A stretch of DNA of 64,000 bases, from positions 62,001-126,000 of the forward strand of contig NZ_FRAV01000010.1 in the NCBI RefSeq assembly GCF_900142445.1, in the 5' to 3' direction. The stretch comes from Chryseobacterium polytrichastri. Lineage in GTDB: Bacteria > Bacteroidota > Bacteroidia > Flavobacteriales > Weeksellaceae. Positions 9,591 through 63,464 of this stretch are shown in pieces (the stretch's first letter is position 1; every line of letters begins with the position of its first letter). The notes under the pieces were generated by a model, which worked only from the letters and a program-made list of their open reading frames with translations, ran no database searches and was not told where the DNA came from. The position numbers were made by a program, and so were the translations under genes.

Positions 9591-9600
9591 ATTTTTAATT

Positions 9601-10242
9601 TTAATAATAAAAGGAAGATCTTTTTCCGAATAATAAGTCGTGGATGATGAAGAGCAAAATTACTTCATTTTCTTTAGCTTTTATTTTTCCGAACTCTATT
9701 TTGTTTTTTATTCTAATATTATCTTGGTTGGGACCTGTAAATTCTATTAAATATTCACCTTGAGCTCTATATGAATTAGGGTTTTCCGAATAGAAAAAAT
9801 ATTTCCAACTAAAATCTTTCCAGTCATATTCCTGATTATGAAAAAGGATTTTGCCTTTGTTAAATTGCAAAATAGGATGCTGAAGATTGTTAATGTAATA
9901 AAAAGTTAAAGGAAGTTTATTGTCATTAATAATTTCATCCAAATCAAATTTATCTTTTCCGAAATAATAAGGTTTTCCTATATCAAGAATATTACATAAT
10001 AAATTCAAAGGAAGCGGATGTTTTGTTTTAGAAATAATTATTTTCTTTAAATAATTAAAAAAATCTCTTCCAAAGCATATAGCAACAATTCCTAATATCC
10101 ATGCTACAAGATCGCTTGAATCTTCAAATTTAAAAACATATAATAGAATACTGAAAATTCCTAAAATCATTAATACAATTAATACTCTTAGAAAATATAA
10201 AAGATTGATAATTGTAAGAATTCTCAGACTGAATATTTCCAT
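9601..10242 (-). CDS. Hypothetical membrane-anchored protein in the NAD operon
   Basis: A 213-residue protein with two hydrophobic helices near the N-terminus (about residues 8-36 and 43-62) and a soluble C-terminal part rich in Lys, Asp, Phe and Tyr. I recognise no family. It sits between nadB (23 bp upstream) and nadC (10 bp downstream) in the same direction, so it is co-transcribed with the NAD genes. The C-terminal domain has the look of a beta-rich fold, with short alternating hydrophobic strands. A link to NAD synthesis rests only on position; it may be an insertion specific to this lineage. Confidence 0.65.
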   Translation of the reverse strand: MEIFSLRILTIINLLYFLRVLIVLMILGIFSILLYVFKFEDSSDLVAWILGIVAICFGRDFFNYLKKIIISKTKHPLPLNLLCNILDIGKPYYFGKDKFDLDEIINDNKLPLTFYYINNLQHPILQFNKGKILFHNQEYDWKDFSWKYFFYSENPNSYRAQGEYLIEFTGPNQDNIRIKNKIEFGKIKAKENEVILLFIIHDLLFGKRSSFYY

Positions 10243-10265
10243 TGATTCTTGCGTTTAAACTCTTT

Positions 10266-11837
10266 TTAAGCTAAATCTTTATTATAAAACGCTCCTTTGT
10301 TCTCCGTCATTTCCATAGATTGGGTGATGATGAGGTGAGCAACGGTTGTTAAATTTCTTAGTTCTGATAATTGTGGCGAAAGAATGGAGTAGTGGTAGAT
10401 TTCATCTACAGCCGCAGCAATTTCCTGATGCTTTTGTAAAGCCATAGCTAAACGTTTGTTGCTTCTTACGATTCCCACAAGGTCGCTCATCATTTCCTGA
10501 AGTTGTTTTCTTAGGTAGCTTACGATTACCATTTCATCCATGATATTCATTCCTTCTTCATCCCATTCAGGGACTGCTTTTAAATCATCAAAGTTGAAAT
10601 TATTTTCATTTAATAGCGTCATTGTTTTCATAGCAGCATTGTGTCCGAAAACTAAACCTTCTAATAAGGAGTTGGAAGCTAGTCTGTTGGCTCCATGTAG
10701 TCCTGAGTTGGTACATTCACCAACTGCAAAAAGATTTTTAATGGATGATTGCCCGTCTTTGTCAACTTCAATTCCGCCCATCAAATAATGGCAAGCCGGA
10801 ACTACGGGAATCAATTGAGTAAAAGGATCAATTGCTTCTTCTCTGCATTTTTTATAAATATTGGGGAAGTGTTCCAAGAATTTTTCATGATCCATATCCC
10901 GGCAATCTAAGCCGACAAATTCATCACCTGAAACTTTCATTTCATTATCAATAGCTCTTGCGACAATATCTCTTGAGGCTAATTCTTCACGTTCATCATA
11001 TTTGTGCATGAATTTTTCCCCTCTTTTAGTTCTTAATTTTGCACCATCTCCACGAACTGCTTCTGAAATTAAAAATAACATTCCATCAATTTTACTATAC
11101 AAAGCTGTGGGATGAAACTGATAATACTGCATATTGGAAACCTGACCTTTCGCACGGGCTACAAATGCAATTCCGTCTCCTGTTGCAATTTTAGGATTGG
11201 TTGTGTTTTTATAAACATGTCCGGCACCGCCTGTTGCTACCAAAGTAATTTTTGAAGTAATTTTTTTGATAGTTTTAGATTTTTCATCTAAAATGTAGGC
11301 TCCGTAGCAATGGATATCTCCTGTATTTAATTCTTTTCCGGGAACGTGGTGTTGCGTAATGATATCAATTACATAATGATGATCTAAGATCTCAATATTC
11401 GGACTTTTATTAGCGGTCTCCAAAAGAGCTCTTTCAATCTCAAAGCCGGTAATATCTTTATGATGAACAATTCTGTTTTCGGTATGGCCGCCTTCTCTTC
11501 CTAAAGCAAATTCACCATTTTTTTTGTCAAAGTTGGCACCCCATTCTACGATCTCGTTGAATCTTGCAGGAGCTTCCCTTACCACCATTTCTACAACATC
11601 ATGTTTGTTTTCTCCGTCTCCGGCACGCATAGTATCCTCGATGTGCTTTTCAAAATTATCATTCTTGGAATCTGTGACTACCGCTAAACCGCCTTGTGCA
11701 TATTTGGTATTGCTTTCATCTTCATCAGATTTCGTTACTATAATTATTTTGGCATCAGGGAGTTGCTCAGAAACTTTTATGGCATAAGAAAGTCCCGAGA
11801 TACCGGAACCAATTACTAATACATCCGCTTTTATCAT
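10266..11837 (-). CDS. nadB: L-aspartate oxidase
   Basis: A 523-residue flavoprotein that oxidises L-aspartate to iminoaspartate, the first step of de novo NAD synthesis. The N-terminal FAD-binding motif is VLVIGSGISGLSYAIKV, followed by SNTKYAQGGLAVV, where the fumarate reductase/aspartate oxidase family binds flavin and substrate. Further family segments are REGGHTENRIVHHKD, QFHPTAL, EAVRGDGAKL and GANRLASNSLLEGLVFG. The C-terminal helical domain is complete. It lies upstream of the unknown gene and nadC in one operon. Confidence 0.97.
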   Translation of the reverse strand: MIKADVLVIGSGISGLSYAIKVSEQLPDAKIIIVTKSDEDESNTKYAQGGLAVVTDSKNDNFEKHIEDTMRAGDGENKHDVVEMVVREAPARFNEIVEWGANFDKKNGEFALGREGGHTENRIVHHKDITGFEIERALLETANKSPNIEILDHHYVIDIITQHHVPGKELNTGDIHCYGAYILDEKSKTIKKITSKITLVATGGAGHVYKNTTNPKIATGDGIAFVARAKGQVSNMQYYQFHPTALYSKIDGMLFLISEAVRGDGAKLRTKRGEKFMHKYDEREELASRDIVARAIDNEMKVSGDEFVGLDCRDMDHEKFLEHFPNIYKKCREEAIDPFTQLIPVVPACHYLMGGIEVDKDGQSSIKNLFAVGECTNSGLHGANRLASNSLLEGLVFGHNAAMKTMTLLNENNFNFDDLKAVPEWDEEGMNIMDEMVIVSYLRKQLQEMMSDLVGIVRSNKRLAMALQKHQEIAAAVDEIYHYSILSPQLSELRNLTTVAHLIITQSMEMTENKGAFYNKDLA

Positions 11838-46427: not shown

Positions 46428-47063
46428 TTACAACCAAGTTACAACTCCGGTTTCAACGTCATAGTTGGCTCCAACTATTTTGATTTTACCTTCGTCTTCA
46501 AGCTTTTTAAGCGTTGAACTTTGTGTACGAATGTCTTCGATGGCACTTTTGACATTTTGTTGATTTAATCTTTCCAAAAGATCACCGTTTTTAGAAGAAC
46601 GCTCTTCACCTTCTTCAATGATGTCATTAATAATCGGATCAAAATGGTTGATTAGGTGGTTCAGGTTATCCATTCCCATCCCTTGTATTTGTGCTGCATC
46701 CAAACCGCCTTTTAAAGCGCCACATTTTGTGTGCCCTAAAACTACAACAAGCTTTGAACCCGCAACGTTACAACCAAATTCCATTGAGCCTAAGATATCC
46801 TGATTTACAAAGTTACCAGCAATTCTAACGCTGAAAACATCTCCTAATCCCTGATCGAAGATAAGTTCTGCAGAAGTACGGCTGTCTATACAGCTTAAGA
46901 TTACGGCAAAAGGCCATTGCCCTTCACGGGTAGCATTTACTTGTCCTAAAAGATCTCTGTTTGCCTTTAGATTGTTTACAAATCTTTGGTTTCCTTCTGT
47001 TAAAATTTCTAATGCTTTTTCGGGAGTAATTGTCGATTGAGTTTCGTGTGTATGTGCTTTCAT
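46428..47063 (-). CDS. Beta-carbonic anhydrase
   Basis: A 211-residue zinc enzyme that interconverts CO2 and bicarbonate. The zinc ligands are Cys and Asp of SCIDSRTS and His and Cys of HTKCGALKGG. FAVILSCIDSRTSAELIFDQGLGDVFSVRIAGN is a classical beta-class core. The His-containing N-terminal start (MKAHTHETQ) has no signal peptide, so the enzyme is probably cytoplasmic. It lies 47 bp downstream of the SulP transporter gene and is likely co-transcribed with it. Confidence 0.95.
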   Translation of the reverse strand: MKAHTHETQSTITPEKALEILTEGNQRFVNNLKANRDLLGQVNATREGQWPFAVILSCIDSRTSAELIFDQGLGDVFSVRIAGNFVNQDILGSMEFGCNVAGSKLVVVLGHTKCGALKGGLDAAQIQGMGMDNLNHLINHFDPIINDIIEEGEERSSKNGDLLERLNQQNVKSAIEDIRTQSSTLKKLEDEGKIKIVGANYDVETGVVTWL

Positions 47064-47110
47064 ATGATGTATTTATTCTTTTTAAAGTTAAAAAAATTAT
47101 TGGAATGAGC

Positions 47111-48703
47111 TTACATTGCTCTTTTGTGAGTAATCAAGATATGAGAATCCTGATTGGTTTCATAATCTCGATATGAAGTTTTGAAACCTAGAAGTTCAAC
47201 ATTAATATCTTCTTCTTTGGCTCTTATATTGGCGAAATCCTGAATCATTTCTAGTACATCTGTAGTGATGTATGAAGTTTCTCTTGCGTCAATAGTTACT
47301 GTAGAATTAGACTTAATGTTTTTTAATGTTTTCTTGATGGCTGCTTTATTTAAGAAAGAAACTTCTTCAGCCAATTTAATAGTGATTTCATCTGCATCGT
47401 CTAGCTTTTCTCTGCTTAAATAATAAGCACGTTTCATATTCCCTTGAAGAATGTAGAAAACAGAAATAGCTAAACCAATTCCTACACCTTTCAACAAGTC
47501 TGTAGCTACTATCGCAACGACAGTTGCAACAAATGGAATGAATTGAAATTTCCCCAAATGCCAGAAATGCATAAAAGTAGCAGGTTTTGCTAATTTATAT
47601 CCTACCAAAATCAATACAGCAGCAAGCGTTGCAAGCGGTATTAAATTTAAAATGAATGGAATGGTAAGAACGCAAACTAATAGAAGAACACCATGAATCA
47701 TAGCTGAGGTTTTAGAAGTAGCTCCCGCATTGGCGTTGGCTGAACTTCTTACCACAACGGAAGTCATTGGAAGTCCGCCGATGAATGAGCTTATCAGGTT
47801 TCCGATTCCTTGAGCTTTAAGTTCCAGGTTGGTATCAGTAATTCTTCTTTGTTTATCTAATCTGTCTGATGCTTCAATACAAAGTAATGTTTCGATAGAA
47901 GCTACAATGGCAATGGTTGCTCCTACGATCCAAACTTTAGGATTGGTTAATCCACCGAAATCAGGCAGAGTGATCAAATTTTTAAAATCTTCAACAGATT
48001 TTGGCACAGGTAAAGAAACTAAATGTTCTGTCCCAATTGCTAATCCGCTTCCTGATATTTTAAAAAGTTCATTAAGTACAATACCTAAAACTACCGCAAC
48101 TAATGCTCCTGGAAGCATTTTCATTCTTTTTAAAGCAGGTACTTTATCCCAAATTAAAAGAACAGATATTGATACCAAAGTAACTAGAATGGCTCCTATG
48201 TGAACTGCTACTAATAATTCAGTAAAATAATTAAAATTGAGTCCTTTATCAAATATTGATTCATGACCTTCATAATCTTTATCAAACCCTAATGCATGTG
48301 GAATTTGTTTTAAAATAATGATGATACCAATGGCGGCAAGCATCCCTTCAATAACGTTATTGGGAAAGTAGTTTGAAATACTTCCGGCTCTTACGAAGCC
48401 TAAAATTAATTGAATGAGACCCGCCACGATTCCTGCGCAAAGGAAAAGGTCAAAGGCACCAAGATCTGTGATTGCCGTTAAGACAATCGCTGTTAAGCCT
48501 GCAGCAGGACCGGATACTGAAATGTTAGAGTTACTTAAAAACCCCACTACTAATCCACCAACGATCCCTGAAATAACTCCAGATAATGGTGGTGCTCCAG
48601 ATGCTAAAGCAATTCCTAAACAGAGCGGAAGTGCTACTAAAAATACAACGAGGCCTGAAGGAAAATTTTCCTTAATTCCTCCTATTAAAGATGTCTTTTT
48701 CAT
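47111..48703 (-). CDS. SulP family inorganic anion (probably bicarbonate) transporter
   Basis: A 530-residue inner-membrane transporter. The start GLVVFLVALPLCLGIALASGAPPLSGVISGIVGG is the conserved first SulP segment; NISVSGPAAGLTAIV and LPMTSVVVRSSANANAGATSK are further family motifs. About 10-12 helices are followed by a cytoplasmic STAS domain (about residues 440-525, TVTIDARETSYITTDVLEMI). SulP proteins move sulfate or bicarbonate with Na+ or H+. The flanking carbonic anhydrase genes argue for bicarbonate, as in BicA-like systems; sulfate remains possible. Confidence 0.92.
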   Translation of the reverse strand: MKKTSLIGGIKENFPSGLVVFLVALPLCLGIALASGAPPLSGVISGIVGGLVVGFLSNSNISVSGPAAGLTAIVLTAITDLGAFDLFLCAGIVAGLIQLILGFVRAGSISNYFPNNVIEGMLAAIGIIIILKQIPHALGFDKDYEGHESIFDKGLNFNYFTELLVAVHIGAILVTLVSISVLLIWDKVPALKRMKMLPGALVAVVLGIVLNELFKISGSGLAIGTEHLVSLPVPKSVEDFKNLITLPDFGGLTNPKVWIVGATIAIVASIETLLCIEASDRLDKQRRITDTNLELKAQGIGNLISSFIGGLPMTSVVVRSSANANAGATSKTSAMIHGVLLLVCVLTIPFILNLIPLATLAAVLILVGYKLAKPATFMHFWHLGKFQFIPFVATVVAIVATDLLKGVGIGLAISVFYILQGNMKRAYYLSREKLDDADEITIKLAEEVSFLNKAAIKKTLKNIKSNSTVTIDARETSYITTDVLEMIQDFANIRAKEEDINVELLGFKTSYRDYETNQDSHILITHKRAM

Positions 48704-48848
48704 GATGTGAAAACTGCTGTGAATGTATAATTGAGCTATTTGTCTTTAAATAAATCAATTATAAAAGATTGGAAATTTAATTTTAAAGCATGTGTATTCG
48801 ATATCAAATTTGATATGAATAATTGGAAATATGAATCTGACTTTAAAA

Positions 48849-49148
48849 TTAAGCTTCCGGAGGAGGCGAAAATATAGTAAGTAGGGGTGACAGATGAAAA
48901 GAATCATCTATCAAAACAAAAGATCTACCTGAAAGATCAGGTTCGAAAAATTTTAGATAATCGAATACATCCAAGGTCTTTGGAATTGTCTTTTCGTAAA
49001 TGATTAAAGAGGTGGGATGAGAATGGGGTTCTTCTTCATTGATTATTATATTGGTTCTCTGTAGATCCCATCCAAAAACAGCAGCAATGCTTGGCAGCGC
49101 TGTAAAGTTTAGGAAAAACGTTAATATAATAATACTCCAGAATTTCAT
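48849..49148 (-). CDS. Small exported His-containing protein of unknown function
   Basis: A 99-residue protein with a hydrophobic signal-like N-terminus (MKFWSIIILTFFLNFTALPS) and a mature part of about 75 residues containing EEEPHSHPTSLIIYEK and a Pro-rich C-terminus IFSPPPEA. The two His near acidic residues could bind a metal such as zinc, which carbonic anhydrase needs, but that is inference. It sits between a carbonic anhydrase gene (20 bp upstream) and the SulP gene (145 bp downstream) on the same strand. No family recognised. Confidence 0.65.
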   Translation of the reverse strand: MKFWSIIILTFFLNFTALPSIAAVFGWDLQRTNIIINEEEPHSHPTSLIIYEKTIPKTLDVFDYLKFFEPDLSGRSFVLIDDSFHLSPLLTIFSPPPEA

Positions 49149-49168
49149 TTTATATTCTTTTAAAAAAA

Positions 49169-49837
49169 CTATTTCGTTTTTTTACTCATTACCCAATCTG
49201 AACCAGTAAGGTTATAGATTTTTTGGATGTCTTTTAATGTTTTTTCAAAATCAATCTCCAAATCAATAATTCTACCTGTTCTAAGGTCAAAAACCCAGCC
49301 GTGAACAATAGGATATTCTTCTAAAATATATCTTTCTTGTACACAAGCCATTTTAATTACGTTGATACATTGCTCTTGAACATTCAGCTCTACAAGCCTG
49401 TCATAACGTTTACCTTCATCACTAATAGCATCTAGTTCTGCTTGGTGCAATCTATACACATCACGGATGTTTCTCAACCATGGATTTAATAATCCTAAAT
49501 CCTGAGGAGTCATCGCTGCTTTTACACCACCGCAGTTGTAATGTCCACAGACAATAATGTGTTTTACTTTTAGGTGTTCTACAGCATACTGTATGACAGC
49601 TGTTGAACTCATATCTAAAGTATTAATCACATTCGCAATGTTTCTGGTTACAAAAACTTCACCTGGCTGTGTGCCCATTAATTCTTCTGCCGTTACTCTG
49701 CTGTCTGAACATCCAATGTATAGATAATCAGGATTTTGAGTTTTAGCTAGTTCTTCGAAGAATTTTGGATCTTGTGAGATTTTAGACTCTACCCATTTTC
49801 TATTGTTTTCAAAAATAACTTCGTACGATTGTGACAT
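49169..49837 (-). CDS. Beta-carbonic anhydrase (second copy)
   Basis: A 222-residue beta-class enzyme of the Can type. The zinc ligands are Cys and Asp in IGCSDSRVTAEEL and His and Cys in CGHYNCGGVKAAM. The start FENNRKWVESKISQDPKFFEELAKTQNPDYLYIGCSDSR matches the Can subfamily closely and has no signal peptide. Sequence likeness to the copy at 46428 is limited to the core, so these are different subfamilies and not a recent duplication. It is the first gene of the unit; a TATTTTTG element lies at 49917-49924. Confidence 0.96.
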   Translation of the reverse strand: MSQSYEVIFENNRKWVESKISQDPKFFEELAKTQNPDYLYIGCSDSRVTAEELMGTQPGEVFVTRNIANVINTLDMSSTAVIQYAVEHLKVKHIIVCGHYNCGGVKAAMTPQDLGLLNPWLRNIRDVYRLHQAELDAISDEGKRYDRLVELNVQEQCINVIKMACVQERYILEEYPIVHGWVFDLRTGRIIDLEIDFEKTLKDIQKIYNLTGSDWVMSKKTK

Positions 49838-54559: not shown

Positions 54560-54567
54560 TATTTTTG
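54560..54567 (+). promoter_or_regulatory. -7 element TATTTTTG for the plus-strand glycan-modification operon
   Basis: A perfect TAnnTTTG match ending 17 nt before the chosen ATG. It lies in the short region between the divergent glycan operons; on the other strand only a weak TATCTTTA is seen. Confidence 0.55.
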
Positions 54568-54584
54568 TGACTCACACAAATATA

Positions 54585-55355
54585 ATGAACGAATTACTAA
54601 GGGTTTCCAAAACATTTTTAGCCTATCTTAAACGTCCGGATCTTTATCCTGAATTAGGCAGAAAAATCATAAAAAATACTTTTAATAGAGGTAATGCTTT
54701 TAAAGGTAAAGAGAAAACCAACTCTTGGGCAGCCTCAAAATCAATTTCTCAAAAAGAAGCAATTTCCCAGCTTTTTGAAATTGATATGAGTTCTTTTAAA
54801 CAAGATTTTCTGGAAGTTTTAAGAAAATCTGAACAAAGAGAAATATCTTGTCCCGTAAAAATGGGTGGTGCAGGCGCAATGGAGTTGATCTATTTCGCAT
54901 GTGAGTTTACAAAAGCACAGGATGCTATAGAAACCGGAGTCGCTTACGGTTGGTCTTCTTTGGCTGCATTACTTTCTCTTCAAAAACGAGACGGAGCTTT
55001 ATATAGTTCCGATATGCCTTATTTAGCACAAGATGGAGATCAATATGTAGGAGTTGTAGTTCCTGATGATTTAAAGAAATATTGGAAGCTATTCCGTTTT
55101 GCAGATAAAGAATCTTTACCTAAAATCTTCACAGAAAATCAATCTTTTGATGTTGTGCATTATGACTCAGATAAAAGTTATAATGGAAGAATGTGGGCTT
55201 ATGAGGAATTGTATAAACACCTTAGAAAAGGAGGCGTATTTATAAGTGATGATATTGGAGATAATTCTGCATATCAGGATTTTTGTGAAAAAGGAGCTAT
55301 CAATACAACTGTAATCGAGTTTGAAGGAAAATACATTGGTGTGTTTGTAAAGTAG
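54585..55355 (+). CDS. Class I SAM-dependent methyltransferase
   Basis: A 256-residue Rossmann-fold methyltransferase of the Methyltransf_24 type. The SAM-binding motif I is AIETGVAYGWSSLAAL, with SSDMPYLAQ as the acidic motif II region, SFDVVHYDSDKSYNGR as motif III and LRKGGVFISDDI as motif IV. Such enzymes O-methylate sugars or small acceptors. I chose the ATG at 54585, not the upstream GTG at 54567, because the promoter element ends at 54567. It leads an operon with two MBOAT genes and an FkbH-like enzyme, so the target may be a glycan sugar or the acyl donor. Confidence 0.85.
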   Translation: MNELLRVSKTFLAYLKRPDLYPELGRKIIKNTFNRGNAFKGKEKTNSWAASKSISQKEAISQLFEIDMSSFKQDFLEVLRKSEQREISCPVKMGGAGAMELIYFACEFTKAQDAIETGVAYGWSSLAALLSLQKRDGALYSSDMPYLAQDGDQYVGVVVPDDLKKYWKLFRFADKESLPKIFTENQSFDVVHYDSDKSYNGRMWAYEELYKHLRKGGVFISDDIGDNSAYQDFCEKGAINTTVIEFEGKYIGVFVK

Positions 55356-55376
55356 TTTTTATTTTAAATAAAGTTT

Positions 55377-56810
55377 ATGCTTTTTAACTCTATTGCCTTT
55401 TTAATTTTTCTTCCCATCGTTTTTATATTATACTGGAAGGTATTTAATAAAAACTATAAATATCAAAATATGCTTTTATTGGCAGCCAGTTTTTATTTTT
55501 ACGGCTGTTGGGATTGGCGTTTTCTATTTCTTTTGATATTTTCTATCGGGCTAGATTATTTTTCAGGAATTCAAATTGAAAACAGCAAGACAAAAAAAAT
55601 GGCAACTTTTTGGTTGACATTAAGTATTGCGATTAATCTTGGGTTTCTTGGTTTTTTCAAATATTATAATTTCTTTATAGAAAATTTTGCAGAACTTTTA
55701 CATTCGTTTGGGTTTGGTGTAAACATGTGGGTGTTAAAAGTTATTTTACCCGTTGGTATTTCTTTTTATACCTTCCATGGTCTATCTTATGTGATTGATG
55801 TTTACAAAAAAAGAATTCCGGCCGAAAGAAACTATGTAGATTATGCGGTATTTGTAAGTTATTTTCCTTTGCTGGTTGCAGGACCTATTGAAAGAGCAAC
55901 GCACCTTCTTCCTCAAATTCAGCGGAAAAGATCTTTTGATTACGAAAAAGCTAAAGATGGAATGGCCCAGATTTTCTGGGGCTTTTTCAAGAAGATGGTG
56001 ATTGCAGATAATTGCGCGCCTATTGTTAATGAGATATTTACAAACTATCATACAGAAAGCGCCAGCAACTTAGTATTGGGAGCTGTGCTTTTTGCCTTTC
56101 AGATTTATGGAGATTTTTCCGGATACTCAGATATTGCGTTAGGAACATCCAGATTGTTTGGTCTGGAGTTACTTAAAAATTTTTCATACCCATATTTTTC
56201 AAGAGATATTGCTGAATTCTGGAGAAGATGGCATATTTCACTTTCATCATGGTTTAGAGATTATCTCTATATTCCTTTAGGGGGAAGTAAAGGTGGGTTG
56301 TGGATGAAAATTAGGAATACTTTTATTATTTTTCTGGTCAGTGGTTTTTGGCATGGAGCCAATTGGACGTTCATTATTTGGGGTGGACTTAATGCCTTAT
56401 TTTTCCTCCCATTATTAATTGCTGAAAAGAACAGGCATCACCTGGAAGTTGTTGCAATGGGAAAAATTATTCCTTCGCTAAGAGAAGTTTTCAGTATTTT
56501 AATGACATTTACGCTGACTTGTTTTGCGTGGATTTTTTTCCGTTCAGAAAGTGTTTCCGATGCTATTGGATATATCAAAAGGATCTTTAACGAAAGTCTA
56601 TTTTCTTTCCCGACAGAGTTTAGATTTGTTTTGTTTGGGTTGATTATTTTTATGTTTGTCATAGAATGGTGGAATAGAACACAGGATTACGGATTAAAAA
56701 TTCAAGACAAAAAACCTTGGTTGCAAAGTGTTATTTATATTGTAGTAGCCTATTTGATATTGAATTTTGCCAATTTTGGCAGTAATGAATTTATTTATTT
56801 TCAATTTTAA
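55377..56810 (+). CDS. MBOAT family O-acyltransferase (first)
   Basis: A 477-residue polytopic membrane-bound O-acyltransferase of the AlgI/DltB/PatA group, which moves acyl groups across the membrane for addition to surface polymers. The catalytic His326 is in SGFWHGANWTF, and FQIYGDFSGYSDIALGTSRL, FWRRWHISLSSWFRDYLYIPLGGS and ISFYTFHGLSYVIDVY are standard segments. The next gene starts at the base after its stop and encodes an SGNH-type partner. The acyl donor is probably acyl-CoA or the acyl-ACP made by the linked FkbH/ACP genes. Confidence 0.95.
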   Translation: MLFNSIAFLIFLPIVFILYWKVFNKNYKYQNMLLLAASFYFYGCWDWRFLFLLIFSIGLDYFSGIQIENSKTKKMATFWLTLSIAINLGFLGFFKYYNFFIENFAELLHSFGFGVNMWVLKVILPVGISFYTFHGLSYVIDVYKKRIPAERNYVDYAVFVSYFPLLVAGPIERATHLLPQIQRKRSFDYEKAKDGMAQIFWGFFKKMVIADNCAPIVNEIFTNYHTESASNLVLGAVLFAFQIYGDFSGYSDIALGTSRLFGLELLKNFSYPYFSRDIAEFWRRWHISLSSWFRDYLYIPLGGSKGGLWMKIRNTFIIFLVSGFWHGANWTFIIWGGLNALFFLPLLIAEKNRHHLEVVAMGKIIPSLREVFSILMTFTLTCFAWIFFRSESVSDAIGYIKRIFNESLFSFPTEFRFVLFGLIIFMFVIEWWNRTQDYGLKIQDKKPWLQSVIYIVVAYLILNFANFGSNEFIYFQF

Positions 56811-57776
56811 ATGAAGAAATTTTTCTCAAGATTAGCAATATTTATAGCCATCATATTTATTATTGGCTTGGTGAAACTTGCTGTTAGCCCAAATACGAAT
56901 TATTCATATCCGTTTTTAAATGCAAAACTGGAGTTTCTGGAAAAACATCCAGAATACAATATGTATTTCATTGGAAGTTCAAAAATAAATAATCAGGTTG
57001 ATTGTAAAATTATCGATCAGAATATTGAAGGTGTAAAATCTTATAACTTAGGAGCCAACGCAGGTTTTGATTTGGAAAGCTTTCAAACCTTAGATTATAT
57101 ATTAAGTAATCCTAATTTTAAACCTAAATATATCATCGTTGAATTGCAGGATAAAATAAAGGTTACCAAAATCAATATTAAAACGGAAAGAAGTTTCGGA
57201 TCCTTCAATTATGCAAATACTGATTTTGCTGTAAAGTATCATCAAGAGAATAAAGATTATAAGCAAATAGGAATGTCGTTGGCGTCTTTTGTTTTAAATG
57301 TTTTTCACTTTAATAAATACTCTGATGAAAGCTCAATTCAAAAAGCGCATAATGGTTTTATAGATAATAATCAGGGTTTTTCTGCATTAGAGTTTAGCTC
57401 GGTTCCCAGGACTGAAGAAAATAAACTTAAAACTGTGATTAAAGAAAGGCTTGAACGTTATCATGCAGATCAAAATAAGTACACACCAAATAAAGCTTTA
57501 GTTAATAGAATTAATGAATTCTCAGAAAGGTGTAAGAAAAAAAATATTCAATTGATACTCTATATTCCAGGGCCAGCGGAACCGGATGCAAAAAAGCTGG
57601 AAGCATATCAAAATGCGTTCAATGTACCAGTTATAAGTCTAGTAAATCCAGATGCATATCCTGAGTTTTATCAATATGAAAATAGATGGGATTATGGTCA
57701 CCTTAATGAAAAAGGATCAAAAATTCTTTCAGAAAAAACGGCTCCTCTTTTAGAAAAAGTTTTACATAATAAATAA
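56811..57776 (+). CDS. Membrane-anchored SGNH-like acyltransferase partner (first)
   Basis: A 321-residue protein with one N-terminal membrane helix (about residues 7-25) and an extracytoplasmic domain. The serine block reads YFIGSSKINNQVD and a final Asp-x-x-His lies in WDYGHLNEKGSKIL, the dyad typical of DltD/AlgJ/AlgX-type SGNH proteins. Such proteins take the acyl group from the MBOAT partner and load it on the polymer. It starts immediately after the MBOAT stop, so the two are coupled. Sequence likeness to the second partner at 62538 is slight. Confidence 0.8.
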   Translation: MKKFFSRLAIFIAIIFIIGLVKLAVSPNTNYSYPFLNAKLEFLEKHPEYNMYFIGSSKINNQVDCKIIDQNIEGVKSYNLGANAGFDLESFQTLDYILSNPNFKPKYIIVELQDKIKVTKINIKTERSFGSFNYANTDFAVKYHQENKDYKQIGMSLASFVLNVFHFNKYSDESSIQKAHNGFIDNNQGFSALEFSSVPRTEENKLKTVIKERLERYHADQNKYTPNKALVNRINEFSERCKKKNIQLILYIPGPAEPDAKKLEAYQNAFNVPVISLVNPDAYPEFYQYENRWDYGHLNEKGSKILSEKTAPLLEKVLHNK

Positions 57777-57852
57777 TCAAATATTACATTTAATTAAAGC
57801 TTAAACTGAGGTTTGTAAATAAATGAGATTAGTTGTATTTTGCAAATCCCAA

Positions 57853-59583
57853 ATGAAACCTATGATGAAAACGTTTACACAATTAAAGAAAAATTTAAGT
57901 AAAAAAGAAGAAGGCTTAAAAAAGATAAAAGTTGCCTTGTTGGGAGATACAGCAACTCAGTTTTTAAATGTAGCCTTGAAAGGTTCTGCTATTGATGAAG
58001 GCTTTGATTTGGAGGTTTTTGAAGCAGATTTTGGTCAGATTTCCCGTCAGATTTTAGATCCTACTTCAGAATATTATGAGTTTAATGCTGATTATACGAT
58101 CATCTTTGAATCTTCACATAAATTACTTTCTCAATATTATAAATCATATAATTCTCAACTGAATTTTGCTCAGGATAAAATCAATTATATAGAAGAATTA
58201 TACACTACCATTCAAAACCGAACAAAAAGCAAAGTTATTTATTGCAATTTCGCAGGAATTGATAATCAGGTTTTCGGGAATTTTGCCAATAAAGTAGAAT
58301 CATCTTTTGTTTTCCAGCAAAATAAACTTAACTATTTACTGTCAGAATTAGCGGTTAAAAAGAACAATCTTTTTATTTCAGATTTACTTTCTATTCAAAA
58401 TAAATGGGGAAGAAATTTTATGTTTTCGCCCAATATTTATGTGAATACAGAGATGGTATTGTCTTTAGATGTACTGCCAATTGTTTCCCATCATATCGTT
58501 AGTATTTTATCTTCCGTAGAAGGTAAGTTCAAGAAGTGTCTGATCTTAGATCTGGATAATACAACATGGGGAGGAATTATTGGTGATGATGGCCTTGAAA
58601 AAATACAGATCGGTAGCTTAGGAATCGGGAAAGCTTTTACAGAACTTCAATATTGGGCTAAAGCGTTGCAGAAAAGAGGCATTATTCTAGCGGTCTGCAG
58701 TAAAAATGATGAAGATAAAGCGAAGGAGCCTTTTGAAAAACATCCCGATATGGTTCTTAAATTGGACGATATTGCTGTGTTTGTAGCCAATTGGGAGAAT
58801 AAAGCAGATAATATCAGAAAAATTCAAAGCATATTAAATATTGGTTTCGATTCTATGGTTTTCCTGGATGACAATCCTTTTGAAAGAAATATTGTAAGAG
58901 AAAATCTTCCAGATGTTTGCGTTCCCGAATTACCCGAAGATCCTGCAGAATATTTGGAATATTTATATAGTTTAAATCTTTTTGAAACCGCAAGCTTCTC
59001 TGAAAATGATGCTGAAAGAACGAAGCAATATCAGGTTGAAGCCGAAAGAGCAATTGCGTTAGACAGTTTTACCAATGTAGAAGACTTTCTTAAAAGTATG
59101 AATATGAAGTCTGATGTTCAGACATTCAATAACTTTTCAAAACCGAGGGTTTCTCAATTAACACAACGTTCTAATCAATTTAATTTAAGAACCGTAAGAT
59201 ATACTGAACAAGATGTTGAAAGCCTTATGAATTCGGAGGATCACCATACCATGTCTTTTACTTTGGTAGATAAATATGGTGACAACGGATTGATTTGTGT
59301 GATTGTCCTGGAAAAGAAAAATGAAGAAACGCTTTTCATTGAAACATGGCTGATGAGCTGCCGAGTGTTGAAAAGAGGGATGGAGGAATTTACGCTTAAT
59401 ACAGTTGTTGAGACAGCAAAAAAGAATGGTTTTAAATATGTTGCAGGAGAATATCTTCCAACAGCAAAAAACCAAATGGTGAAAGATCATTACCAAAAGT
59501 TAGGGTTTATAGAAAATGAAGGAGAATGGATATTAAATGTGGATAACTATGAGCCAAAAGAAGTTTTTATAAGCACAAAATAA
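57853..59583 (+). CDS. FkbH-like HAD-IIIC enzyme (glyceryl-ACP synthase type)
   Basis: A 576-residue multidomain protein. An N-terminal SGNH-like part (KVALLGDTATQFLNVAL) is followed by a HAD-IIIC domain: DLDNTTWGGIIGDDG near residue 233, AVCSKNDEDKA near 282 and FLDDNPFERNIV near 338. The C-terminus is GNAT-like (MSCRVLKRGMEEFTLNTVV, HYQKLGFIENEGEW). FkbH proteins of polyketide pathways dephosphorylate 1,3-bisphosphoglycerate while loading glyceryl on an ACP; an ACP gene lies 0.9 kb downstream. I set the start at an ATG 30 bp inside the longest frame because TTTG, 20 nt, TATTTTG, a promoter-like pair, lies upstream. An ATG 12 bp later is also possible. Confidence 0.88.
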   Translation: MKPMMKTFTQLKKNLSKKEEGLKKIKVALLGDTATQFLNVALKGSAIDEGFDLEVFEADFGQISRQILDPTSEYYEFNADYTIIFESSHKLLSQYYKSYNSQLNFAQDKINYIEELYTTIQNRTKSKVIYCNFAGIDNQVFGNFANKVESSFVFQQNKLNYLLSELAVKKNNLFISDLLSIQNKWGRNFMFSPNIYVNTEMVLSLDVLPIVSHHIVSILSSVEGKFKKCLILDLDNTTWGGIIGDDGLEKIQIGSLGIGKAFTELQYWAKALQKRGIILAVCSKNDEDKAKEPFEKHPDMVLKLDDIAVFVANWENKADNIRKIQSILNIGFDSMVFLDDNPFERNIVRENLPDVCVPELPEDPAEYLEYLYSLNLFETASFSENDAERTKQYQVEAERAIALDSFTNVEDFLKSMNMKSDVQTFNNFSKPRVSQLTQRSNQFNLRTVRYTEQDVESLMNSEDHHTMSFTLVDKYGDNGLICVIVLEKKNEETLFIETWLMSCRVLKRGMEEFTLNTVVETAKKNGFKYVAGEYLPTAKNQMVKDHYQKLGFIENEGEWILNVDNYEPKEVFISTK

Positions 59584-59586
59584 AAT

Positions 59587-60492
59587 ATGGAAATTGAACA
59601 CTTAATTGAACACATTGCGACTAAAAATGCTATTCATGGCAAAAAGTTGCAAAAGAATTTTTCTTCTTTAAAGGAAGAAGAACATTATATTAATGACTAT
59701 AATGTTTTCATCAATAAATACAAAGATATTCTTGAAAAGAACAGCCTTACATTTGATGATTCAATTAACTATTATCTTAAAATGATTGGGGATTTTAATG
59801 AAGAAATGCTGGATTTTATAAGAACAGGGAAATACAGAAATACTTCATTTGATGCAGTAAACAAAGCAATGTATAATAATCCTGATGTTATGGTTTCTCA
59901 TATGCACGGATTATTGCTTTCTCAGTTTCTTTGGAAGCATCACTACGATGTTTATCAATATTTTAAAAATGGGATTCAAAACTATTTACCAATACAATCT
60001 TATCTTGAAATAGGAGCAGGGCATGGCTTATATTTTGAAGCCGCAATGGAAAAAATTGGGGATGATTGTACTTTTGAAGCGCTGGATATTAGTGAATCTT
60101 CTCTTGAACTCACAAAAAGTTTAATCAAAAGTGACAAGGTTATCTATCATCTTAAAAATGTATTTGATTATAATGATGATGACGAAAAGAAAGATTTCAT
60201 AACCATGGGAGAGGTGCTAGAGCATATGGAAGATCCTTTAGCGTTATTAAAGAAAATCAAAAACCTTATAAAACCAGAAGGAACTATTTTTATTACAACT
60301 CCTACCAATGCCCCTTCCATAGATCATATTTATCTCTTTAACAATGTTCAGGAAATCCGAGATTTAATTAATAAGGCTGGATTGGAGATTGTGGATGAAA
60401 GGTATTTTGTAAGTGAAGATATAGATTTAGAAAAAGCAGAAAAAAGAAAGATTGCAACCATGTATGCATCTTTTTTAAAAATAAATAATTAA
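59587..60492 (+). CDS. Class I SAM-dependent methyltransferase (second)
   Basis: A 301-residue enzyme with a helical N-terminal region and a Rossmann methyltransferase domain: [16 protein letters not shown] (motif I), [18 protein letters not shown] (motif II), [23 protein letters not shown] and [14 protein letters not shown]. It lies 3 bp after the FkbH-like gene and 5 bp before the ACP gene. In the FK520 and related pathways an FkbG methyltransferase acts on glyceryl-derived groups bound to an ACP, so an O-methylglyceryl product is a reasonable but unproven inference. It could instead methylate a sugar. Confidence 0.85.
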
Positions 60493-60497
60493 ATATT

Positions 60498-60737
60498 ATG
60501 AATAAAGAAGAAATTTTATCAAAACTATCAGAAATTTTCCGTGAAGAATTGGATAATGAAGATATTACCTTAACAGAAGAAACGACAGCAAATGATGTAG
60601 AAGAATGGGATTCACTTTCTCATATTCAACTTATCGTAGCTGTAGAAAAGGCTTTTAAAGTACGTTTCACTTCTTCAGAAATTCAAAGCTGGAACACTGT
60701 AGGTGAAATGGCAAGTTCTATTGCTTCAAAATTGTAA
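60498..60737 (+). CDS. Acyl carrier protein
   Basis: A 79-residue carrier protein, acidic, four-helix type. The phosphopantetheine attachment site is Ser39 in [13 protein letters not shown], the DSL motif. It stands in a glycan locus, not beside fatty-acid genes, so it is a specialised carrier, most likely the acceptor for the FkbH-like enzyme upstream. Its stop codon overlaps the start of the next gene by one base. Confidence 0.93.
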
Positions 60738-61117
60738 TGAAATTTCATCACGTAGGAGTTGCCTGTAAGGATATACAGGCAGAACTCCAAAGCATAAGAC
60801 AACTCCACAAAATCATAGAAGAAACGCCTGTTGTTTTCGATGAAAATCAGCAAGCAGAATTATGTATGATTACGGTAGAAGACGGATTGAATATTGAGCT
60901 TGTTTCAGGAAAGCCGGTGGAGAATCTTTTGAAAAAAAGAATTTCATACTACCATATTTGTTATGAAGTGGATGATATTGATAAAACAATAGAATATCTT
61001 ACCGAAAAAGGAGGAATGCTAATCTCCCCACCTAAAGAAGCGATACTTTTCAATAACAGGAAAGTGGCTTTCTTAATGCTTTCTTATGGAATTGTTGAAC
61101 TTTTAAATAGCAACTGA
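60737..61117 (+). CDS. VOC-fold (glyoxalase / methylmalonyl-CoA epimerase-like) protein
   Basis: A 126-residue vicinal-oxygen-chelate protein. Metal ligands are visible in FHHVGVAC, the middle Glu of GLNIELVSG, YYHICYEVDD and the final GIVELLNS, which matches the epimerase subfamily of the fold. It would act on a small acyl substrate, perhaps the ACP-bound three-carbon unit, by epimerisation or a related proton transfer. It overlaps the ACP gene by one base and precedes the second MBOAT gene by 2 bp, so it belongs to the module. Confidence 0.85.
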   Translation: MKFHHVGVACKDIQAELQSIRQLHKIIEETPVVFDENQQAELCMITVEDGLNIELVSGKPVENLLKKRISYYHICYEVDDIDKTIEYLTEKGGMLISPPKEAILFNNRKVAFLMLSYGIVELLNSN

Positions 61118-61119
61118 TA

Positions 61120-62538
61120 ATGCAGTTTACCTCATTAGTATTTATCCTTTTTTTTCCGGTTGTTTTTGCCATATACTGGTGGGTTTTAGGAAAAAATCTT
61201 AAGGCTCAGAATGTATTTTTATTATTGGCCAGTTATGTGTTTTATGCAAGCTGGGACTGGAGGTTTCTTATACTTTTGGTGGTAAGTTCAGCAGTATGTT
61301 ATTATTTAGGCTTGAAAATTTCTGAAACTCAAGATTCCAAGAAGAAAAAGCTTTGGGTAAATTTGGGATTACTATTTTCTGTAGGAACATTATTTTATTT
61401 TAAATATTTCAATTTCTTTATTGAGTCTTTTGCAGATTTATTTGGAATTAAAAATGATTTGACGTTAAAAATAATTTTACCACTGGGAATTAGTTTTTAT
61501 ACTTTCAGGATGATAAGTTATATTCTTGATATTAAGAATAATAAACTAAAAGCTGAAACTGATACTTTAGCTTTTTTCAACTATATTTCTTTTTTTCCAA
61601 GTATGACTTCAGGTCCTATTGACAAAGGAGGGCTGCTACTTCCTCAACTGAAAAAAGAAAGAGTTTTTACCGTTGAAAATGGATCTGATGCAGCAAGGCA
61701 GATTCTTTTGGGAGCATTCAAAAAGCTGGTTGTTTCTAATAGTATTTCACCCATTACTCAGAATATATTCCAGAACTACGAACATCTTTCGGGAAGTACA
61801 ATTGCTTTTGGGGCGGTTCTTTTCCTATTCCAGATGTATGCAGATTTTTCAGGATATTCGGATATGGCTATTGGTATTGCAAAACTGTTAGGTTTTAAAA
61901 CAACTAAAAACTTTGCTTTCCCTCTTTTCGCTCAAAATATTGCAGATTATTGGAGGAAATGGCATATTTCATTAACTTCTTGGTTAACAGAATATGTCTT
62001 TACCCCATTAGTAATACAATTCAGAGATTACGATAAAAAGGGATTAATGCTTGCCGTTTTTCTGAATTTTGTGATCATAGGTTTCTGGCATGGAGCCAAC
62101 TGGACTTTCATTGTTTATGGAGCTTTGCAAGGACTATACTATGTTCCTTTAGTGGTTAATAATCAAATTAATAAAAAGAAGAAGTTATCTAAAACAATTC
62201 CCACATTTAAAGAACTTGGAAATATAGTTTGTACAATGGCTATGGTTTGTTTTGCATTGGTTCTTTTCGTGGCGCCGAGTTTAAAAGAAGCTTTCGGTAT
62301 GTATGGAAGAATTTTTAGTCTTTCGCTTTTCTCAGTTCCTCAGTTTATTAAAATTAAAATTTTAGGTTTAATTGCCATTGTCGTTTTAATTGACTGGATT
62401 AATAAAGAGCAAGAGCATGGTTTAGAAATTAGCAGATTTAAACCAATCGTAAGAAGGAGTATGTATGTTTTCCTTATTTTTCTGATTATGTATTACGGCG
62501 TTTTTGGCAACGGAAGTTTCATCTATGAACAGTTCTAA
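61120..62538 (+). CDS. MBOAT family O-acyltransferase (second)
   Basis: A 472-residue polytopic membrane-bound O-acyltransferase, similar in layout to the one at 55377. His324 in GFWHGANWTF is catalytic; FQMYADFSGYSDMAIGIAKLL, YWRKWHISLTSWLTEYVFTPLVI and ISFYTFRMISYILDI are standard segments. A difference is SMTSGPIDKGGLLLPQL in place of the LLVAGPIERATHLLPQI of the first, hinting at a different donor or partner. Its stop overlaps the start of an SGNH-like gene by one base, as a second acyl-transfer pair. Confidence 0.95.
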   Translation: MQFTSLVFILFFPVVFAIYWWVLGKNLKAQNVFLLLASYVFYASWDWRFLILLVVSSAVCYYLGLKISETQDSKKKKLWVNLGLLFSVGTLFYFKYFNFFIESFADLFGIKNDLTLKIILPLGISFYTFRMISYILDIKNNKLKAETDTLAFFNYISFFPSMTSGPIDKGGLLLPQLKKERVFTVENGSDAARQILLGAFKKLVVSNSISPITQNIFQNYEHLSGSTIAFGAVLFLFQMYADFSGYSDMAIGIAKLLGFKTTKNFAFPLFAQNIADYWRKWHISLTSWLTEYVFTPLVIQFRDYDKKGLMLAVFLNFVIIGFWHGANWTFIVYGALQGLYYVPLVVNNQINKKKKLSKTIPTFKELGNIVCTMAMVCFALVLFVAPSLKEAFGMYGRIFSLSLFSVPQFIKIKILGLIAIVVLIDWINKEQEHGLEISRFKPIVRRSMYVFLIFLIMYYGVFGNGSFIYEQF

Positions 62539-63464
62539 TGAAAAAGTTTTTATTTAAAATATCATTCTATATTATTGGTGTTATTGGTGTTATGCTGTTC
62601 TTAGGGACTTATGCAGATGGTAATACTGATGATAATTACAGGCATTATACAGGCCCTAAACCCTCTGATATGATTTTGGGTGATTCTCGTGGCGGACAGG
62701 CGGTCATTCCCTATGTTCTGGATGAAAAACTAAAAGGAACAAAGTTTAATAACTTTGCTCTTAATATTGGGGATTCTCCTTATGGGCAAGTCTATCTTGA
62801 GGCGGTAAAGAGAAGAATGAATCCTGATACTAAAAATGGAATTTTCATTTTAACCGTTGATCCTTGGTGCTTGTCAATAGATAAAAGTTTAGAACATTCA
62901 ACAGAAGATTTAGATCAGAATTCTCCTCTGGCTGATATGCATTTTTATGATATGAGCCCCAACTATGAATATCTTTTAAAGCACTATTCAAGAAGTTGGT
63001 TTAACATTTATAAGGAAAGGGAAGAACTTGCAAAATCGGTAACTTTTTTACATAAAAATGGATGGATGGAAGTTAATGTAAATGTACATCCAGATAGCGT
63101 TAGAGTAAGGGAAGTTAAAAAGATTGAAGGGTATACTGATATGATGAAAAATCAGAAAATTTCAGAATACAGAATCAATGCCTTTCAAGATATGATACAA
63201 TATCTTAAAGATAAAGGAACGGTTTATATTGTAAGGATTCCTGCCTTCAAAGGGATGATGGAACTGGAAGATAAATACGCTCCTGATTTCAATAAGAAAA
63301 TAGAAAATATAGCAAAACAAAATGGAGTGAAGTTTTTTAATTTATCATCAAAACCGGAGGATTACATTTACACAGACGGAAATCATATGTATAAAGAATC
63401 TGGGAAAATCTTCACTGCTCAAATTGCTGATTCTATTATTGCAGATAAAAAAGGAAAAAAATAA
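62538..63464 (+). CDS. Membrane-anchored SGNH-like acyltransferase partner (second)
   Basis: A 308-residue protein with one N-terminal helix (about residues 5-23) and an extracytoplasmic domain. The serine block is MILGDSRGGQAVI (GDSR) and the late Asp-x-x-His is YTDGNHMYKESGKIF, so the expected catalytic residues are present. It overlaps the second MBOAT gene by one base and probably completes the acyl transfer to the polymer. It is the last gene of the plus-strand operon and is only 2 bp from the end of a convergent glycosyltransferase gene. Confidence 0.8.
   Translation: MKKFLFKISFYIIGVIGVMLFLGTYADGNTDDNYRHYTGPKPSDMILGDSRGGQAVIPYVLDEKLKGTKFNNFALNIGDSPYGQVYLEAVKRRMNPDTKNGIFILTVDPWCLSIDKSLEHSTEDLDQNSPLADMHFYDMSPNYEYLLKHYSRSWFNIYKEREELAKSVTFLHKNGWMEVNVNVHPDSVRVREVKKIEGYTDMMKNQKISEYRINAFQDMIQYLKDKGTVYIVRIPAFKGMMELEDKYAPDFNKKIENIAKQNGVKFFNLSSKPEDYIYTDGNHMYKESGKIFTAQIADSIIADKKGKK

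Follow-up and report, generated by a model that had tools for sequence, protein, structure and literature searches.

The DNA considered here is a stretch of 64,000 nucleotides from Chryseobacterium polytrichastri (the window), which contains an operon of nine genes on the plus strand (54567-63464; contig C49 of a 5.14-Mb genome in 99 contigs). The genes follow one another in the order MT0, MBOAT1, SGNH1, FkbH, MT, ACP, VOC, MBOAT2 and SGNH2 (Table 1), where MT and ACP stand for methyltransferase and acyl carrier protein. The last six form a cassette, FkbH-MT-ACP-VOC-MBOAT2-SGNH2 (57823-63464), with successive gaps of 3, 5, -1, 2 and -1 bp. An earlier interpretation of the window made from its letters alone (the sequence-only reading) had placed the first five of these genes in this order with gaps of 5 bp or less, which agrees with the first four joints. 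The cassette probably encodes a carrier-fed, Dlt-like glycan acylation system, in which FkbH would replace DltA and (O-methyl)glyceryl-ACP would serve as the acyl donor of MBOAT2-SGNH2.

Table 1 Genes of the operon, with the six cassette genes listed before the three upstream ones
Feature	Position	Strand	Description
FkbH	57823..59583	+	FkbH-like HAD-IIIC acyl loader; likely start 57853; predicted glyceryl-ACP maker
MT	59587..60492	+	class I S-adenosylmethionine (SAM) methyltransferase with N-terminal helical part; predicted acyl-ACP O-methylation
ACP	60498..60737	+	acyl carrier protein; attachment Ser39 at 60612-60614
VOC	60737..61117	+	Glyoxalase_4 VOC protein; predicted C2 epimerase of acyl-ACP
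MBOAT2	61120..62538	+	acyltransferase with catalytic-type His324; FIYEQF at 62518-62535, Tyr469 at 62524-62526
SGNH2	62538..63464	+	membrane-anchored periplasmic-type acyl transferase partner; G48-D-S50, D280, H283
MBOAT1	55377..56810	+	acyltransferase, MBOAT family match; C-terminal FIYFQF
SGNH1	56811..57776	+	partner of MBOAT1; GSS and DYGH motifs; one N-terminal hydrophobic segment
MT0	54567..55355	+	class I methyltransferase, Methyltransf_24; first gene of the operon

Proteins of the six-gene cassette

The conservation of residues and neighbours was judged in a set of 81 loci, consisting of the window and the best 80 loci out of 155 confirmed FkbH relatives; the loci numbered L100-L134 come from Chryseobacterium and close genera. 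Neighbouring genes were labelled with hidden Markov models built from the proteins of the window and from the MaoC and SDR proteins of locus L113, which were checked against Pfam.

The FkbH protein, whose closest named relatives are from Chryseobacterium, scored 239 bits with FkbH_N and 315 bits with the NCBIfam FkbH domain (TIGR01686, cut-off 146.65), and its N-terminal and HAD parts match PDB entry 3slr (BF1531 of Bacteroides fragilis, E 3e-150). The in-frame ATG at 57853 is favoured as the start over 57823 because most of the 120 relatives listed are 572-578 amino acids long. D243 and D245 (at about 58549-58557; residues are numbered from 57823), C292 (58696-58698), D349 and D350 are kept in all 81 loci; the HAD aspartates and the conserved cysteine are presumably catalytic. 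MT matches Methyltransf_23, and its structure model (predicted local distance difference test score, pLDDT, 93) is matched in the PDB mostly by O-methyltransferases such as DnrK; a farnesyl pyrophosphate (FPP) methyltransferase takes rank 1 and the C-methyltransferase MrsA is also present. ACP exceeds the PP-binding cut-off (31 bits vs 20.8) and matches DltC weakly, below the cut-off. The DSL serine which the sequence-only reading had noticed in the carrier lies in the motif WDSLSH; it is residue 39 of the protein and is kept in 80/80 loci.

The VOC protein scored 56 bits with Glyoxalase_4. Its ligand candidates H5, E54, H73 and E121, described in the sequence-only reading as epimerase-type, are kept in 20/20 relatives; this set presumably fits glyoxalase I as well and is thus not specific to epimerases. 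An assignment of VOC as a proven epimerase was rejected, as the protein falls far below the cut-off for methylmalonyl-CoA epimerase (TIGR03081, 33.5 vs 114.95 bits) and the solved chains closest to it bear the name glyoxalase; the epimerase function is kept as a prediction. In a phylum sample of 395 Bacteroidota genomes, VOC matches occurred in 85 genomes and reached E <1e-9 in four (the own genome, G195, G415 and G252). All four strong matches lie within three genes of FkbH, and the weaker ones in G290 and G128 are also near FkbH. MT matches at E up to 1e-20 were found in three of the 395 genomes (the window, G148 and G317), with at most five candidates scored per genome; in G148 one gene separates MT from FkbH. 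A VOC domain fused to an AMP-binding domain adjoins FkbH and ACP in another locus (L141:4756-6627).

MBOAT2 scored 63 bits with the MBOAT family and matches the DltB chains 8jem and 6bug in the PDB (E about 2e-28), although it remains below the DltB equivalog cut-off (174 vs 375 bits). Its last six residues, FIYEQF, are of the FXYXXF acyl-shuttle motif type of PatA and DltX. According to Anderson et al. (2025; PMC12148441), the tyrosine of this motif accepts the acyl group in the MBOAT and passes it to the SGNH serine; papers cited here by PMC number are represented by excerpts, and what is said of them holds for these excerpts. Among the 65 usable MBOATs encoded downstream of FkbH, a C-terminal [FY]XYXXF was found in 63 and the strict FXYXXF in 52; His324 is kept in 65/65 and Tyr469 in 63/65. 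The residue following the shuttle tyrosine was considered as a marker of ACP-fed enzymes and dropped, since this residue, E or A in most members of the Chryseobacterium group, is commonly F in other FkbH-linked MBOATs.

The sequence-only reading had treated the MBOAT as the whole transfer unit and had missed SGNH2. This part of it did not hold: the gene starts at the last base of MBOAT2, and the unit consists of MBOAT2 with its C-terminal tyrosine shuttle motif together with SGNH2. The SGNH2 protein gave no match in Pfam or NCBIfam. It has one N-terminal hydrophobic segment (residues 3-26), and its G48, S50, D280 and H283 are kept in 43/43 labelled relatives; a wider alignment (n=32) shows no exception at G48, S50 and H283, whereas D280 is kept in fewer than 90%. 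The AlphaFold model of the protein (pLDDT 85) matches SGNH enzymes in the PDB with modest template-modelling (TM) scores, PatB of Campylobacter jejuni being at rank 3 (E 6e-4) and DltD at rank 11 (E 3e-3).

Joint exchange of tailoring genes, carrier and MBOAT

Of 36 genomes from the genus, 14 (the own genome among them) have an FkbH with an identity of at least 77%, and FkbH exceeds the cut-off in 28 of the 395 genomes of the phylum sample. Of the 81 loci, 80 have an ACP gene in the same run as FkbH (for L170, the remaining one, another search gave an ACP match immediately behind FkbH), and 66 have an MBOAT gene downstream. MBOAT matches as such are common, occurring in 149/395 Bacteroidota genomes. 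An ACP-like open reading frame (ORF) was found in 0/30 of the best-scoring Bacteroidota MBOAT loci, searched with flanks of 1.5 kb beyond the match and sampled by score rather than at random; the shuttle motif was present in 26 of the 33 MBOAT ORF calls in these control loci, one of which looks spurious. The co-occurrence of the families in glycan loci, which the sequence-only reading had proposed as a check, thus exceeds chance for FkbH, ACP and MBOAT.

The recurring frame of these loci is FkbH-ACP-[X]-MBOAT, in which X is nothing, MaoC+SDR, VOC or MT+VOC. In the 65 loci with a usable downstream MBOAT, X was MaoC+SDR in 27, none in 18, MT+VOC in 13, VOC in four, MT in two and MT+MaoC+SDR in one; this count leaves out the fragment L144, and 'none' means none of these labels, so that L169, for example, holds two unlabelled genes. 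Throughout the 81 loci, VOC occurs in 20 and MaoC+SDR in 35, and no locus has both, while 14 of the 17 loci with MT also have VOC. The Fisher p values for these co-occurrences (2e-6 and 1e-8) are descriptive only, since the loci are related by descent. D29, N31 and H34 of MaoC and Y147 and K151 of SDR are kept in 35/35 loci. MT and VOC, which the sequence-only reading had seen beside FkbH and ACP, are present in the operon as described and represent one of several interchangeable tailoring modules.

Within the Chryseobacterium group the MBOAT, the carrier and SGNH2 go with these modules, unlike FkbH and the flanking MT0. Trees of 36 rows from this group required at least five changes of cassette type for MBOAT2, seven for SGNH2, 12 for FkbH and, with 32 rows, nine for MT0, the minimum being four. 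A single clade of the ten MT+VOC loci is rejected by the FkbH data (approximately unbiased (AU) test, p 3e-6), and the MBOAT2 data reject the FkbH clade of the window (p 2e-31; this group was chosen after the FkbH tree had been seen). Pairs of loci matched at 85-90% FkbH identity, 34 with the same cassette and 107 with different ones (counted by FkbH; pairs share rows), differed in mean identity of MBOAT2 (87 vs 65%), ACP (93 vs 78%) and SGNH2 (70 vs 51%), whereas MT0 was the same in both (87 vs 87%). Similarly, C. elymi (L105, with MaoC+SDR) and C. lathyri (L106, with VOC), whose tailoring genes differ, share 96% identity in MT0 and 95% in FkbH, and 79% in ACP, 78% in MBOAT and 60% in SGNH. 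Between the window and L121 the identities are 84% for FkbH, 89% for ACP, 89% for MT, 94% for VOC, 89% for MBOAT and 54% for SGNH. In C. defluvii (L102) a single FkbH (9001-10725) lies between two ACP-MBOAT-SGNH sets, which extend to about 14480; one set is bare and the other carries MaoC+SDR. For the MBOAT of the bare set, identity is 79-82% with three other bare MBOATs and 47% with the neighbouring one. It follows that tailoring genes, ACP and MBOAT have been exchanged jointly among relatives. SGNH follows less well, which suggests that the donor is read by the MBOAT and the acceptor by the SGNH protein. This tracking and the control MBOAT loci support the assumption of the sequence-only reading that the FkbH-linked ACP is coupled to the MBOAT.

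A second FkbH type of about 35% identity, accompanied by VOC and two ACPs, was observed in two congeners (L039 in G006 and L040 in G005). Its gene run also holds KAS III-like, SDR and aminotransferase-like genes (named from their sequences) and likely belongs to an N-acyl sugar pathway.

Upstream genes of the operon and the glycan locus

A second MBOAT-SGNH pair, MBOAT1-SGNH1 (55377-57776), lies upstream of the cassette; SGNH1 gave no family match in the Pfam and NCBIfam searches. We rejected its inclusion in the cassette because it belongs to a separate tree branch, is missing from many cassette loci and has no adjoining ACP. It is likely a separate pair of the acyl-CoA type. The position 5' of FkbH is occupied in relatives by an MBOAT1-SGNH1 pair (as at 55377-57776 in the window), an AT3 acyltransferase (L113:7803-8831) or both, and these genes apparently represent a second, carrier-free acylation site in the same locus. 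MT0 is kept at the locus independently of the cassette type.

Glycosyltransferase genes lie on the opposite strand at both sides of the operon. Downstream are further glycosyltransferases, an FkbM-type methyltransferase, an asparagine-synthase-like gene, a DegT aminotransferase, an FdtA gene, a hexapeptide acetyltransferase and a GT61 gene. These are followed by an ABC ATPase and an ABC-2 membrane gene, a nucleotidyltransferase, a GDP_Man_Dehyd-family dehydratase and a UDP-glucose-dehydrogenase-family gene, and then by nusA. The ABC ATPase matches Wzt_C below the cut-off of that family. These surroundings suggest an ABC-transporter-type O-polysaccharide locus. Elsewhere in the window, a SulP-family transporter gene stands between two carbonic anhydrase genes (46428-49837), possibly a bicarbonate uptake set. 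A scan for promoter-like and terminator-like sites was uninformative (55 promoter-like sites vs 41 in shuffles and 6 terminator-like ones vs 3.8).

A predicted carrier-fed route and its alternatives

The loading of glyceryl by FkbH has a basis in in vitro work, and methylmalonyl-CoA epimerase works through an enolate. In the route predicted from the protein families, FkbH would put glyceryl from 1,3-bisphosphoglycerate on ACP, MT would O-methylate the ACP-bound glyceryl and VOC would epimerise C2 of the acyl-ACP via an enolate, like methylmalonyl-CoA epimerase. MBOAT2-SGNH2 would then carry the acyl group through the membrane via the C-terminal tyrosine and attach it as an ester to a surface polysaccharide, the predicted acceptor being the O-polysaccharide. 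In PatA, an acyl-tyrosine intermediate is reported to have been trapped with acetyl-CoA. The sister cassettes would yield glyceryl when no X gene is present, epimerised glyceryl with VOC, and lactyl with MaoC+SDR. In the last case, β-dehydration of glyceryl-ACP would lead to pyruvyl-ACP and its reduction by SDR to lactyl-ACP. Since SDR would itself set the lactyl stereocentre, no epimerase would be needed, which fits the zero overlap of VOC and MaoC+SDR in the 81 loci. We consider the chances about even that Bacteroidota have a modular family of such carrier-fed MBOAT-SGNH systems, with a constant FkbH-ACP core delivering a glycolysis-derived three-carbon acid and exchangeable donor kits converting it into glyceryl, epimerised glyceryl, O-methylglyceryl or lactyl esters on the surface polysaccharide; the MBOAT would go with the acyl group and the SGNH protein partly with the acceptor.

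The closest known parallel is the Dlt pathway of teichoic acid D-alanylation (DltA-DltC-DltB-DltX-DltD), which likewise combines a carrier protein, predicted here to feed the MBOAT, with a DltB-like MBOAT, an SGNH protein and a tyrosine shuttle motif. The cassette differs from it in having FkbH in place of the AMP-forming DltA, a motif fused to the MBOAT (no separate DltX was seen), predicted tailoring enzymes between loading and transfer, and a position in a Gram-negative glycan locus. No AMP-binding loader was found among the nine operon genes scanned for families. The cassette was not filed as Dlt, because there is no DltA in the operon, the MBOAT is under the DltB cut-off and the motif is fused to the MBOAT. 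The conserved histidine, the C-terminal FXYXXF and an SGNH gene immediately following the MBOAT place it in the fused-motif group, together with the PatA/PatB pairs. These non-Dlt MBOAT/SGNH pathways are said to have no similar carrier protein and to use acyl-CoA (PMC12148441), whereas here carrier and loader genes are in the operon and the ACP gene lies two genes upstream of MBOAT2.

The transfer of glyceryl from 1,3-bisphosphoglycerate to ACPs is ascribed to FkbH-like proteins (PMC7489565). The pathways to methoxymalonyl-ACP and tetronates resemble the cassette in the FkbH-like protein, the stand-alone ACP and the methyltransferase; VOC and MBOAT-SGNH set the cassette apart. Neither the glyceryl-ACP-oxidising dehydrogenases of FK520-type pathways nor a polyketide synthase (PKS) was found in the scan of the nine operon genes. 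For suomilide and varlaxin, modules of FkbH, an O-methyltransferase (OMT) and a peptidyl carrier protein (PCP) were proposed to make O-methylglycerate (PMC13122637, PMC10143770). In these and the banyaside modules FkbH likewise loads glycerate on a carrier and O-methylation follows, but the acyl group enters a peptide, and the MBOAT of suomilide acylates a sugar on the peptide. The nearest carrier-MBOAT pairing that we met is in the varlaxin proposal, where AerO, AerP and AerQ (A domain, PCP and MBOAT) act on another acyl group.

Related acyl groups are known from glycans. C. jejuni makes 2,3-di-O-methylglyceroyl pseudaminic acid (PMC3068675), and its flagellin glycan locus contains an fkbH-domain gene, cj1302, and an annotated epimerase gene, cj1301 (PMC7099621). 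These two genes may be connected with the 2,3-di-O-methylglyceroyl group, which the paper ties to Cj1295. As far as the published descriptions go, this system is alike in placing a methylated glyceroyl on a bacterial glycan and different in that the group is amide-linked to the sugar; no MBOAT appears in the excerpts. D-glyceroyl on Qui4N in Pragia fontium and 7-N-glyceroyl pseudaminic acid in Tannerella are also on record (PMC10609480, PMC9912281). Since N-linked glyceroyl sugars are in print, the acyl group alone is not new, and the novelty claimed in the sequence-only reading for a glyceryl decoration is restricted to the carrier-fed export route. FkbH joined to MBOAT-SGNH glycan acylation was not found among the matches listed from the open-licence literature (preprints not covered), which is a weak absence. 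A search there for FkbH with MBOAT returned only papers on aeruginosins or suomilide, and one for 'FkbH-like' with polysaccharide, judged by title, only a natural-product review and a software paper. A capsule-type locus of B. fragilis Q1F2 (L177:5988-12541) contains an FkbH matching BF1531 (3slr) and then an ACP, and is alike in being a polysaccharide locus; no MBOAT follows there, and a flippase-like gene (named from its sequence) is found instead. The genes preceding its FkbH-ACP pair are, we assume, UpxY/UpxZ-like.

Several observations weigh against the carrier-fed route as outlined. The presence of an aminotransferase and a hexapeptide acetyltransferase in the glycan locus implies that an N-acylated sugar is also made there. 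No downstream MBOAT was found in 15 of the 81 loci (in six it lies upstream in the run, three are cut by the contig end, and in six none was seen, the B. fragilis capsule locus being among these), and in the phylum sample an MBOAT lies within 6 kb in only five of the 28 genomes with FkbH, so that the MBOAT-linked form is one branch of FkbH use. The MBOATs of L128 and L179 are without the shuttle motif, and one locus, L160, joins MT to MaoC+SDR. The MT fold leaves O- versus C-methylation unsettled, and the strong VOC relatives outside the own genome (G195, G415 and G252) are in FkbH clusters without an MBOAT label. G317, which gave no FkbH match, has MT next to an ACP-MBOAT pair. The region concerned (L215:11884-18693) holds MT and two ACP-MBOAT pairs with GDSL/SGNH genes, the contig ending just past MT, and carrier-fed MBOATs may thus be wider than the FkbH-linked ones.

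It is conceivable, though in our view unlikely, that (methyl)glyceryl-ACP N-acylates an amino-sugar nucleotide in the cytoplasm, as in Campylobacter, and that MBOAT-SGNH is an independent O-acetyltransferase which became an operon neighbour by chance. The N-linked groups of C. jejuni, with cj1302 and cj1301 in its flagellin glycan locus, and the N-linked D-glyceroyl sugars of other bacteria lend weight to this explanation, as do the DegT aminotransferase, FdtA and hexapeptide acetyltransferase genes of the locus and the second FkbH type of two congeners, whose run includes SDR and an aminotransferase-like gene. However, the family scan of the nine operon genes found no N-acyltransferase in the cassette. 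Also against this explanation are the ACP and MBOAT identities, which among pairs matched for FkbH go with the tailoring genes, unlike that of the flanking MT0; the two ACP-MBOAT-SGNH sets around the single FkbH of L102; and the lack of an ACP beside any of the 30 best-scoring control MBOATs.

The carrier-fed MBOAT-SGNH route could also be correct with a product other than (O-methyl)glyceryl, such as a C-methylated or otherwise altered hydroxy acid, or with MT acting on the sugar and not on the acyl-ACP. FkbH specificity is not readable from sequence here, the fold of MT resembles O- as well as C-methyltransferases, and VOC occurs without MT in 6/20 loci and MT without VOC in 3/17. We nevertheless regard this variant as rather improbable, given an FkbH domain far above the curated cut-off with residues kept in 81/81 loci, and FkbH-OMT-carrier modules leading to O-methylglycerate in the suomilide and varlaxin proposals. 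Very improbable is a role of the ACP in a PKS or nonribosomal peptide synthetase (NRPS) elsewhere in the genome, with a small molecule as the product. FkbH does serve such enzymes in known pathways, and the genome encodes a KS-AT-ACP-KR megasynthase with a KS/AT/PPTase partner resembling polyunsaturated fatty acid (PUFA) synthases (C5:78000-96000, L004), an AMP-binding/PCP/LbH (hexapeptide) protein (C32:26000-40000, L005) and two small ACPs on C79 (L006 and L007). The only FkbH match of the genome lies in this operon, inside a glycosyltransferase-rich locus ending at nusA, and FkbH, ACP and MBOAT stay together in relatives across families. The megasynthases on C5 and C32 are unlikely users of this ACP, as no FkbH stands beside them; the absence of a PKS or NRPS next to FkbH supports the sequence-only reading, in which the acyl-ACP is not fed to a polyketide synthase. 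What that reading observed has thus been confirmed, and its interpretation is partly supported.

The carrier-fed route would join glyceryl-ACP formation by FkbH, known from antibiotics, with acyl export by MBOAT-SGNH pairs. It suggests that the choice of the donor, made by ACP and MBOAT, is separable from the choice of the acceptor, made by the SGNH protein. Esters of this kind are lost in alkaline work-up, and alkali-labile glycan esters may be overlooked. The scheme would give a gene-content code for the acyl group (glyceryl, lactyl or methylglyceryl) on Bacteroidota glycans and, if the modular interpretation is true, the ester type would be a surface trait able to evolve and recognisable from the genes present.

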